From Halorubrum hochsteinianum (GTDB lineage: Archaea; Halobacteriota; Halobacteria; Halobacteriales; Haloferacaceae), in assembly GCF_023702125.1 (NCBI RefSeq), contig NZ_CP098415.1, positions 1,116,001 to 1,180,000 on the forward strand: DNA of 64,000 nt, given 5' to 3'. The position numbers were made by a program, and so were the translations under genes. Shown here in pieces: positions 8,316-54,510 of the stretch (its first letter is position 1; the number at the start of each line of letters is the position of its first letter). The notes under the pieces were generated by a model. It was not told the origin of the DNA and made no database searches. It was given only the letters and a program-made list of their open reading frames with translations.

Positions 8316-8407
8316 AGTTCACGCATGGGTCACCCGGTGTTTAACGGTTACTAAGCGGGGCAGTTCGCGAGTGGGACTCGACGTTCCGCCTCGAACGACA
8401 ACAGAAA

Positions 8408-8482
8408 GCCAAGGGCCGGATTTGAACCGGCGTTGGGCGGCTCTGCAGGCCGCTGCGTCTGACCGGACTCTGCCACCTTGGC
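8408..8482 (-). tRNA. tRNA-Cys (GCA anticodon)
   Basis: The minus strand folds as a 75-nt tRNA: acceptor arms GCCAAGG and CCTTGGC, an anticodon loop CTGCAGA with GCA, and a T arm GCCGGTTCAAATCCGGC. No CCA is encoded. It lies downstream of 5S rRNA, the usual haloarchaeal operon layout. A TATA-like cttaaacgc about 30 bp upstream suggests it may also have its own promoter. Confidence 0.95.
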
Positions 8483-8577
8483 ACCAGCCGAACGTACCGC
8501 TGTCGAGCGTTTAAGCTTAGCGGTCGCGTGCGAGACCGCGAGCGCGGGGCTCGCGAGTGCGTGAAATGAAATGAAAA

Positions 8578-8606
8578 CAGCCCGCGGGCATTACGCCCGC
8601 GGGCTG
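8578..8606 (-). terminator. hairpin with U-rich tract downstream of 5S rRNA
   Basis: A perfect 12-bp inverted repeat (cagcccgcgggc / gcccgcgggctg, 5-nt loop) lies between 5S and tRNA-Cys. On the minus strand it is followed by a T-rich run, ctgttttcatttcatttcac. A second hairpin of 7 bp (8612-8628, gagagcg/cgctctc) sits between it and 5S. A transcription end or an RNA processing site fits both the position and the form. Confidence 0.6.
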
Positions 8607-8638
8607 AAAGTGAGAGCGGTTCGCTCTCGTATGAATGG

Positions 8639-8760
8639 CGAGGCGGCGACTCGTGGTTCCCAGAGGATCGCTCACTCCAGTACTTCACGATACGCTGGTG
8701 GGCTTAACTTCCGTGTTCGGAATGGGTACGGGTGTTTCCCCACCGCTCTGGCCGCCTTCA
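8639..8760 (-). rRNA. rrf: 5S ribosomal RNA
   Basis: About 122 nt on the minus strand. It carries the haloarchaeal 5S core: terminal stem GGCGGC/GCCGCC, loop region CCCGTACCCATTCCGAACAC and GGAAGTTAAGCCCACCAGCG, then AGTACTGGAGTG. Ends are set from the terminal stem and may be off by a few bases. It follows 23S by about 155 bp in the operon. Confidence 0.95.
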
Positions 8761-8844
8761 TGCCGACTCTCGGATTTGAACCGAGACCCTCCATGTCTCC
8801 GCGCGGAGACACAGAGAGACTCCTGTGTCGGTGTGGTCCGATAC

Positions 8845-8870
8845 CAACCGTGTATAATCGTGCGATCCAG
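8845..8870 (-). other. 23S processing stem, 3' strand
   Basis: This strip pairs with 11941-11964 on the other side of 23S: twelve bases (cgtgcgatccag) pair, then a 2-base bulge, then twelve more (caaccgtgtata). Weaker pairing continues toward the 23S ends. In archaea such flanking stems hold the bulge-helix-bulge site cut by the tRNA-splicing endonuclease. Confidence 0.8.
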
Positions 8871-8915
8871 TTACCGCCTGAACTCATGCGAGTCGTGGCG
8901 CGTCAGCGCCAATGA

Positions 8916-11821
<2,906 letters not shown>

Positions 11822-11940
11822 AGTGTGTCAACATGCTCTCGAAGGAGAGCGTGTTGACGGTGTCAGAAACACTCGTCAGAGTGTTCCGACTGTATATGGT
11901 TCACTGACGTTCCACGAACTCGGATGAGTTCAGTGGACGT

Positions 11941-11964
11941 CTGGATCGCACGTATACACGGTTG
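11941..11964 (-). other. 23S processing stem, 5' strand
   Basis: This strip is complementary to 8845-8870 downstream of 23S, forming two 12-bp perfect helices around a small bulge. It lies between tRNA-Ala and the 23S 5' end, as expected for the precursor stem that brings the two 23S ends together. Confidence 0.8.
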
Positions 11965-12061
11965 TCATTGAATCGCCCCGGGTGTGACGGGGCGTTCGTC
12001 GAACCCTTCCCATCCGCGGTTTCCCGGGATGGTGCATCGGTCGTCGTGTTCTGTCCGAGTC

Positions 12062-12100
12062 GCGTCTCCCACTTAAGGGGACGGATTCGGACCGAACGGA
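12062..12100 (-). promoter_or_regulatory. candidate internal promoter in the 16S-23S spacer
   Basis: Between tRNA-Ala and 23S the minus strand reads CCGAATCCGTCC followed by CCTTAAGTGGG, resembling the upstream CGA element plus TTAAGT core of the two main operon promoters. Internal spacer promoters are known for some haloarchaeal rRNA operons. Support here is by resemblance only. Confidence 0.45.
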
Positions 12101-12102
12101 CA

Positions 12103-12174
12103 TGGACTCACTGGGATTCGAACCCAGGGCATCCTCCTTGCAAGGGAGGCACTCTACCGCTGAGCTATGAGCCC
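12103..12174 (-). tRNA. tRNA-Ala (TGC anticodon)
   Basis: A 72-nt tRNA on the minus strand inside the 16S-23S spacer. Acceptor arms are GGGCTCA and TGAGTCC (one G-T pair), the anticodon loop is CTTGCAA with TGC, and the T arm is CTGGGTTCGAATCCCAG. No CCA is encoded. A tRNA-Ala in this position is the standard archaeal layout. Confidence 0.96.
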
Positions 12175-12212
12175 ACCTTCCCTGGTGGGAAGGTTTGGTG
12201 TCTCGCGTGTTG

Positions 12213-12230
12213 TGTGAGCCGTGGTCGTTC
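12213..12230 (-). other. 16S processing stem, 3' strand
   Basis: tgtgagccgtggtcgttc is the exact reverse complement of 13948-13965, upstream of 16S. Pairing continues past the perfect 18 bp toward the 16S ends with interruptions (for example around the shared gcattgg/ctgtgt segments). It forms the 16S precursor stem expected to hold the bulge-helix-bulge cleavage motif. Confidence 0.85.
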
Positions 12231-12343
12231 TGAGGTGTCCAAGCCGGTGGGTGGCGGACGGTACACAGTCCAATGCGAATGAGTAGTGACCGTTCTGGTG
12301 AACGGTCTAAGGTGAGCCTCCCGTGTGGGAGGTCTCGGGTCGG

Positions 12344-13815
<1,472 letters not shown>

Positions 13816-21330: not shown

Positions 21331-21616
21331 CCACCGAAGCCCCAGTCGCTCGGCTGTACGATGCTGTTTCTGTTTGTAAAAGGCCGATCGACACGGACAC
21401 CACCGAAGCCCCAGTCGCGAGGACTCGCGACTGCCCCTTCGACTCCCGCCCGACCGCGACCGCACCTCACGCCTCCCCAGCCTCGTCGGTCGCCTTCGCG
21501 TTGCTCCGGCGACCGACTCCCTCGCGCGGCGCTGTCGCCGGCGCTGCGCGCCGGCTTCCAGAGGGACCTTCGGTCCCTCGCGGCTCGGCCGCAAAGCGGC
21601 CTCGCAGGCGCGCCGA
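21331..21616 (+). repeat. dispersed structured repeat, copy 1
   Basis: This fills the convergent gap between the ferredoxin gene and hemB. It has a head module (ccgaagccccagtcgctcgg), then the main unit beginning ccgaagccccagtcgcgagg. Stem 1 here is minimal (cagtcgcgag / ctcgcgactg with a 2-base loop). A conserved block (cacctcacgcctccccagcc) leads into stem 2 (gtcggtcgcc / ggcgaccgac, 21485-21494 with 21508-21517), then variable hairpins, including gagggacc/ggtccctc and ggccgc/gcggcc. The same flanks occur at 42867 and 54119. Open frames across it lack coding bias. Confidence 0.85.
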
Positions 21617-21656
21617 CGTGGAAGGGCAAAGAAAAACGGTCGCCGCCGAGGTTCGC

Positions 21657-42866: not shown

Positions 42867-43119
42867 CCGAAGCCCCAGTCGCGAGGACGCCGTACGCTCG
42901 CTGCGCTCCTCGCTCAGTCGCTACCGCTCCTTCGCTGTGGTGCTTGCGTCGCCTACGATATCCTCGCGACTGCCCCTTCGAGCCCCACCCCACCCGCACA
43001 GCAACCGCACCTCACGCCTCCCCAGCCTCGTCGGTCGCCTCCGCTTCGCTCCGGCGACCGACTCCCTCGCGCGGTGCTGTTCGCGGTCGCCGACGGCGAC
43101 CGCTCACAGGCACGCGCCA
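42867..43119 (+). repeat. dispersed structured repeat, copy 2
   Basis: It fills most of the convergent gap between the FAH gene and the TatD-like gene. The unit starts ccgaagccccagtcgcgagg. Stem 1 is cagtcgcgagga with tcctcgcgactg (42876-42887 with 42961-42972) around a longer insert than copy 1. The conserved block cacctcacgcctccccagcc leads to stem 2, gtcggtcgcc/ggcgaccgac, and then a hairpin gcggtcgcc/ggcgaccgc. It lacks the head module of copies 1 and 3. The rest of 42807-43139 has no gene. Confidence 0.85.
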
Positions 43120-43139
43120 CCGCGATTTATTTAAATACG

Positions 43140-54118: not shown

Positions 54119-54423
54119 GCCGAAACCCCAGTCGCTCGGCTGTACGCTGCTGATCTCGTCACGACCGCGACTGCCGAAGCCCCAGTCGCGAGGCGGGCGC
54201 ACGCTCGCTGTGCTCCTCACTCGGTCGCTTCGCTCCCTCGTTGCGGTGCTTGCGTCACCTGCGCCCGCCTCGCGACTGCCCCTTCAAGTCCCGCCCCGCA
54301 ACAGCACCGCACCTCACGCCTCCCCAGCCTCGTCGCTGGCGGTCTCCGCTTCGCTCCGACCGCCAGCGACTCCCTCGCACGCGCTCCTCGGCCGCGATGC
54401 GGCCTCGGAGGCGCGCGCCGACC
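54119..54423 (+). repeat. dispersed structured repeat, copy 3
   Basis: It lies in the 441-bp gap before hel308. The head module (ccgaaaccccagtcgctcgg) and a second start (ccgaagccccagtcgcgagg) are present. Stem 1 is 19 bp and perfect: cagtcgcgaggcgggcgca with tgcgcccgcctcgcgactg (54183-54201 with 54260-54278). Stem 2 is 13 bp: gtcgctggcggtc with gaccgccagcgac (54332-54344 with 54358-54370), a different sequence from copies 1 and 2 but still fully paired. A third hairpin (cgcctccgag type, 54380-54412) ends it. No gene in the rest of the gap. Confidence 0.87.
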
Positions 54424-54510
54424 GTCGGATTGTCGCCACCGTTCGTCGTTTAAAAACGCGCAGCGCGCCCTTCCGACGGTTTAAATCGCGTCGGGGACCA
54501 GACTCAGGTA

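Follow-up and report, generated by a model that had tools for sequence, protein, structure and literature searches.

The three hairpin-bearing strips found in the window, the 64,000-nt stretch of the Halorubrum hochsteinianum chromosome analysed here, belong to a family of hairpin-rich intergenic spacers that runs to about 120 per genome across the genus Halorubrum. Hairpins 1, 2 and 3 of these elements are replaced as whole cassettes, while the core, the connectors and the ends stay nearly constant. The reading preferred here, given a probability of about 0.5, is that of chromosomal modular palindromic repeats that stay at fixed intergenic sites and whose cassettes are copied between elements by a DNA process. 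We infer this copying between fixed sites, donor and direction being seen for no single exchange. The observation of the preliminary description, a dispersed repeat with covarying hairpins, was confirmed, and its interpretation was partly supported.

The conserved core, CCTCACGCCTCCCCAGCCTCG, gave 127 matches in the H. hochsteinianum genome (G000; 3.06 Mb, two contigs), 60 forward and 67 reverse, with up to three mismatches allowed; 122 of them were read in context, and the reversed pattern gave none. No core match among those listed lay on the 101-kb second contig. Both flanks quoted in the preliminary description are exact in all three window copies, and no shuffle of the window gave three core-flank matches; its count of three is right for the window and gives way genome-wide to the 127. 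The core is present in all 52 Halorubrum genomes, with totals of 9-195 matches per genome. Outside the genus its distribution is patchy: an order-wide sample of Halobacteriales had any match in 111 of 392 genomes, many of these with one or two chance-level matches, and large numbers occurred in few genera. Among GTDB records with a name, those matching the core exactly came nearly all from Halorubrum, with a few from Halorussus, Haloparvum and unnamed archaea. Viral contigs held no exact core match, a phage collection showed no similarity to the element, and plasmids, on which the element is rare, yielded four partial matches. A Natrinema plasmid (L340, 1180-1320) and a Halobaculum plasmid (L342, 1170-1420) bear related elements of the hairpin-1 type that end in GAAAGCCC..CCCTTTC, which suggests that the family is part of a larger haloarchaeal superfamily whose other members have different cores. 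The statement that no described family has this form held against the Rfam 15 covariance models, among which only a sub-threshold CRISPR-DR20 hit was obtained, and against the searched literature on haloarchaeal repeats, where the PATEs (palindrome-associated transposable elements) and small mobile repeats come nearest (PMC3119063).

A full copy of about 300 bp reads, from 5' to 3', as one or more 5' units, hairpin 1, a link, the 21-nt core, hairpin 2, TCCCTCG, hairpin 3 and the end CACGCGCCACCGC (Table 1). The 5' units start with CCGAAGCCCCAG(T/C)CGC; in hairpin 1 the internal loop, CCC/CCC, lies between the outer stem, CGAAG/CTTCG, and an inner stem that is long; the link contains CCCCTTCGAGTCCC; and the outer stem of hairpin 3 is GCGCGTGC/GCACGCGC. 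The core is invariant and unpaired. Since a further copy of the 5' motif precedes copy 1 (21334) and copy 3 (54120), the repeat has a tandem 5' unit, and the longest array found in G000 (L040, G000:C1:452434-452827) holds seven near-identical 63-nt units in tandem. The stem 2 sequences and the stem 1 lengths of 10, 12 and 19 bp read as first described. Besides the two hairpins described there is a third, with two extra hairpins inserted in copy 1; similar small inserts occur in 19 of 123 G000 copies.

Table 1. Features of the three element copies (window positions).
Feature	Position	Strand	Evidence
Copy 1: 5' unit, 69 nt, starts CCGAAGCCCCAGTCGC	21334..21402	+	match to the motif; spacing of 69 (3n)
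Copy 1: hairpin 1, shortened, 10-bp stem CAGTCGCGAG/CTCGCGACTG	21403..21447	+	sequence
Copy 1: conserved core CCTCACGCCTCCCCAGCCTCG	21465..21485	+	core search (G000:C1:1137465)
Copy 1: hairpin 2 cassette TCGGTCGCC/GGCGACCGA	21486..21516	+	sequence; family covariation
Copy 1: hairpin 3 region, two inserted hairpins and element 3' end	21524..21617	+	sequence
Copy 2: 5' motif, then hairpin 1 with a stem of 12 bp	42867..42983	+	sequence, motif match
Copy 2: conserved core	43010..43030	+	core search
Copy 2: hairpin 2 cassette	43031..43061	+	sequence; covariation
Copy 2: hairpin 3 and 3' end CACGCGCCACCGC	43069..43123	+	sequence; covariation
Copy 3: 5' unit, 54 nt	54120..54173	+	sequence, motif match
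Copy 3: hairpin 1, 19-bp stem plus outer stem	54174..54290	+	sequence; covariation; folding
Copy 3: conserved core	54312..54332	+	core search
Copy 3: hairpin 2 cassette TCGCTGGCGGTC/GACCGCCAGCGA	54333..54369	+	sequence; covariation
Copy 3: hairpin 3 and 3' end	54377..54424	+	sequence; covariation

Pairing of the stems is strongly supported, and the earlier remark that stems differ in sequence yet stay paired is right. The structures on which pairs were counted were set by hand, and the rows are paralogues, so that independent events are fewer than the counted cells. Among 39 copies with distinct hairpin 2, paired cells made up 97.6% versus 81.2% in shuffles, with a covariation score of 0.395 versus 0.117; for hairpin 1 the paired cells were 90.6% versus 83.1%. 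Changed cells were two-sided in 114 cases and one-sided in 2 for hairpin 2 (A1), and two-sided in 53 and one-sided in 4 for hairpin 1 (A2). Since stem changes are nearly all two-sided and G-U intermediates are hardly present, en-bloc cassette copying or palindrome repair fits the pattern.

Replacement of whole hairpins was observed at conserved sites. In a comparison with genome G046, 74 copies were read. For 60 of them the two flanks fell at a single element locus of G000; another 8 had a match for one flank or hit two separate loci, and 6 had no match, the design being blind to sites empty in G000. All 60 matched sites agreed in gap and orientation, and their flanks were 94.6% identical. Hairpin 2 was identical at only 6 of the 60, some of the 54 differences being N runs or unparsed copies; among cleanly parsed pairs 34 of 47 were less than 80% identical, and the median identity was 0.64 at orthologous sites versus 0.61 for random pairs. 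Hairpins 1 and 3 act similarly between the two genomes. At two sites hairpin 2 alone was altered, with hairpin 1, link and hairpin 3 at 98-100% identity. Across species, the three window gaps carried the element in 19 of 24 (gap 1, where two more cases look degenerate and three are empty), 17 of 24 (gap 2) and 13 of 16 (gap 3) syntenic cases. The comparison of orthologous gaps, proposed earlier as a search for empty sites, did yield gaps of 2-6 bp in three species at the ferredoxin/hemB site, while in the filled cases the element had the same orientation in 49 of 49 and a different hairpin 2 in most.

Among 120 copies 84 hairpin 2 types were counted, the commonest in 7, 6, 5 and 4 copies, and the hairpin modules are unlinked, mutual information being not above that of shuffles. 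Copies sharing an identical hairpin 2 have flanks no more similar than random pairs; the 7-copy cassette keeps the same internal mismatch amid unrelated neighbours. In a few copies (L117, L140, L322, L001, L122) the loop of hairpin 1 or 2 appears inverted between arms, as expected from recombination between arms. The preliminary description held that the structure is selected or actively regenerated. Regeneration fits better, because orthologous sites show whole-hairpin replacement and not base-by-base compensation.

In the proposed mechanism, ectopic gene conversion over short tracts, or else template switching, would carry cassettes from element to element. The simplest trigger would be a hairpin, as a cruciform, that stalls or breaks replication; the gap may then be refilled from another copy, with the invariant core and connectors serving as homology. 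Arm-to-arm copying inside the palindrome would keep the stems perfect. Under the whole mechanism most of the covariation would stem from a DNA process, and the element itself may be a spacer that is tolerated between genes or of slight use there, convergent gaps holding it more often than divergent ones. Several points count against this mechanism. Gene conversion usually involves longer tracts than the present ones, which measure 30-50 bp and have some 20 bp of homology at their flanks, and the palindromy of nearly all 84 cassette types would still need selection or arm repair. Intergenic DNA around the element is also much diverged between G000 and G046, so some of the replacement may be due to whole gaps imported from other lineages.

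A purely DNA process would also not predict the differences found between the strands, which bring in another explanation, that of a structured non-coding RNA made in many copies from the strand opposite to that of the preliminary description, with its hairpins kept by selection. The pairing statistics of hairpins 1 and 2 would suit such an RNA, and of 60 copies 40 have a better fold on the minus strand than on the plus (P=0.001), with folding z of -6.9 versus -4.5 for copy 3. A.C mismatches, equal to G.U on the minus strand, number about 119 versus 47 for G.T, as summed by hand, although two inherited positions supply much of the excess. TATA-like boxes stand at fixed distances, mainly 29, 34 or 37 nt ahead of the 5' motif and also 5-14 nt beyond the 3' end, but most copies have none. 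The promoter of the downstream gene was considered as the source of the 3' box and is unsupported, the box being present for both gene directions. Because of the somewhat better minus-strand folding and the excess of A.C over G.T, a minus-strand RNA is possible, but we hold it doubtful: one-sided intermediates are almost absent, whole hairpins are replaced at orthologous sites, and Rfam has no match. Since hairpins swap at fixed, same-direction sites, the matching of the stems speaks for DNA copying no less than for an RNA under selection.

The copies are intergenic. Relative to the element, flanking genes in G000 run (+,-) in 40 cases, (+,+) in 39, (-,-) in 23 and (-,+) in 18, so that convergent gaps are commoner than divergent ones and a position downstream of a plus-strand gene, reported for the window, is a tendency only. 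Two of the window gaps are convergent, ferredoxin/hemB and FAA hydrolase/TatD-like hydrolase, and the third, methyltransferase/Hel308-like helicase, lies between genes of the same direction; hemB and Hel308 are probable names drawn from the protein families. An rRNA operon (5S, LSU, SSU) with two tRNAs occupies the minus strand at window positions 8407-13815. The shared orientation of the three window copies is real but a local coincidence, since both orientation (z=0.73 in a runs test) and spacing are random along the chromosome. A chromosome-organising signal with replichore polarity, of the KOPS type, could draw on the many scattered chromosomal copies and the lack of any listed on the second contig; the random orientation and spacing make it highly improbable, and replichore polarity was rejected; the earlier suggestion of DNA architecture is unsupported so far as it involves such polarity.

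The element belongs with the dispersed palindromic repeats. REP/BIME sequences of bacteria are intergenic and palindromic, prefer convergent gaps and occur with RAYT transposases. The present element shares the first three properties, and paired inverted copies were seen in one relative, but it is archaeal, measures about 300 bp, has three hairpins around a 21-bp invariant unpaired core, and has no RAYT/Y1 transposase in G000. That relative is G204, a genome outside the family with the genus label of the other high-copy f17 genomes, in which the core often occurs in back-to-back inverted pairs 140-190 nt apart (BIME-like pairs, for example at C1:1277644/1277809, C4:27251/27436 and C7:88781/88966, on contigs C1, C4 and C7). 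In Haloquadratum walsbyi, the PATEs and the small mobile repeats are non-coding, palindromic and present in many copies without terminal inverted repeats, with heterogeneous sequences and with repeats nested in others (PMC3119063); the element, likewise haloarchaeal, shares these traits. PATE ends resemble those of IS605-type transposons, and strain-specific insertions were seen (PMC3119063). Unlike PATEs, the element has sites conserved across species, no Y1 transposase in G000, and hairpins exchanged as cassettes between fixed sites. It also differs from a MITE, by inspection, in having no terminal inverted repeats: CCGAAGCCCC at one end and CACGCGCCACCGC at the other form no inverted repeat, and the palindromes are internal.

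A non-autonomous transposable element of REP/BIME or PATE type, spread by a transposase in trans, would account for the dispersed copy number and hairpins, the 2-6 bp empty gaps, the preference for convergent gaps, the patchy presence outside Halorubrum and the BIME-like inverted pairs of G204. In the empty gaps, gain and loss of the element are indistinguishable, and their flanks are too diverged for a target-site duplication to be read. The search for a transposase covered the Y1 type (PF01797), and it had no match in G000 or in 3 of 7 other Halorubrum genomes, all with many copies, which disfavours REP/RAYT or PATE mobilisation; for this reason the element is not filed with either, though its layout resembles both. 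With position and orientation conserved between species, recent transposition is unsupported for most copies. Together with the absence from the viral and phage sets and the lack of terminal inverted repeats, these findings make transposition in trans unlikely.

The 5' array follows a rule of three nucleotides. Of 192 spacings between tandem 5' units in three data sets, 184 were divisible by 3 (61/62, 37/41 and 86/89), though independent cases are far fewer than 192 because length classes, spanning 48 to 75 nt, pass on by descent and some sites occur in both G000 and G046. From the stop of an upstream gene reading toward the array, the distance to the first unit was 3k+1 in 104 of 172 cases (P=4e-13), gene ends being taken from a simple codon-score caller whose wrong stops are expected to weaken rather than create a bias. 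This phase was strongest near the stop and significant in each data set alone; genes pointing away showed no such relation (22 of 77 in phase). At the element's other end the phase relation is absent, a 3' phase lock hinted at in one set having been lost with larger data. In G000 the unit frame is stop-poor, 2 of 33 in-phase units having a stop there versus 15 and 27 in the other two frames.

Low-level translation of the 5' array and the gap before it, by stop-codon readthrough in a frame kept open by selection, would explain the 3-nt rule only, and would draw on the spacings, the phase with genes reading in and the stop-poor frame alike. It is nevertheless improbable: codon usage of the frame is not gene-like, a TAA lies inside the 57-nt unit type, multiples of 3 persist even without a gene reading into the array, stops are little depleted in other species, and Pfam gave no match. 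An ordinary coding repeat was rejected, with codon usage not gene-like, stops present, variability without 3-periodicity and no Pfam match. Tandem satellites in which the unit length can be divided by 3 were described from Halobacteria before and taken as coding (PMC6749651); the present units are likewise tandem in Halobacteria with lengths in multiples of 3, but they are intergenic and without gene-like codon usage.

In its widest form, cassette copying might belong to a genome-wide exchange system of about 120 fixed, oriented sites that have a frame of invariant connectors in common, with hairpin-targeted recombination and a 5' array quantised in 3-nt steps and phased with the upstream gene, a proposal advanced here only tentatively. 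In conclusion, the family would be a case in which textbook-strength covariation can come from cassette copying and not from RNA selection, which bears on RNA discovery by covariation; it is also a natural data set of large size in which archaeal recombination linked to hairpins can be studied, and its 3-nt phase rule outside genes is a further point of interest.
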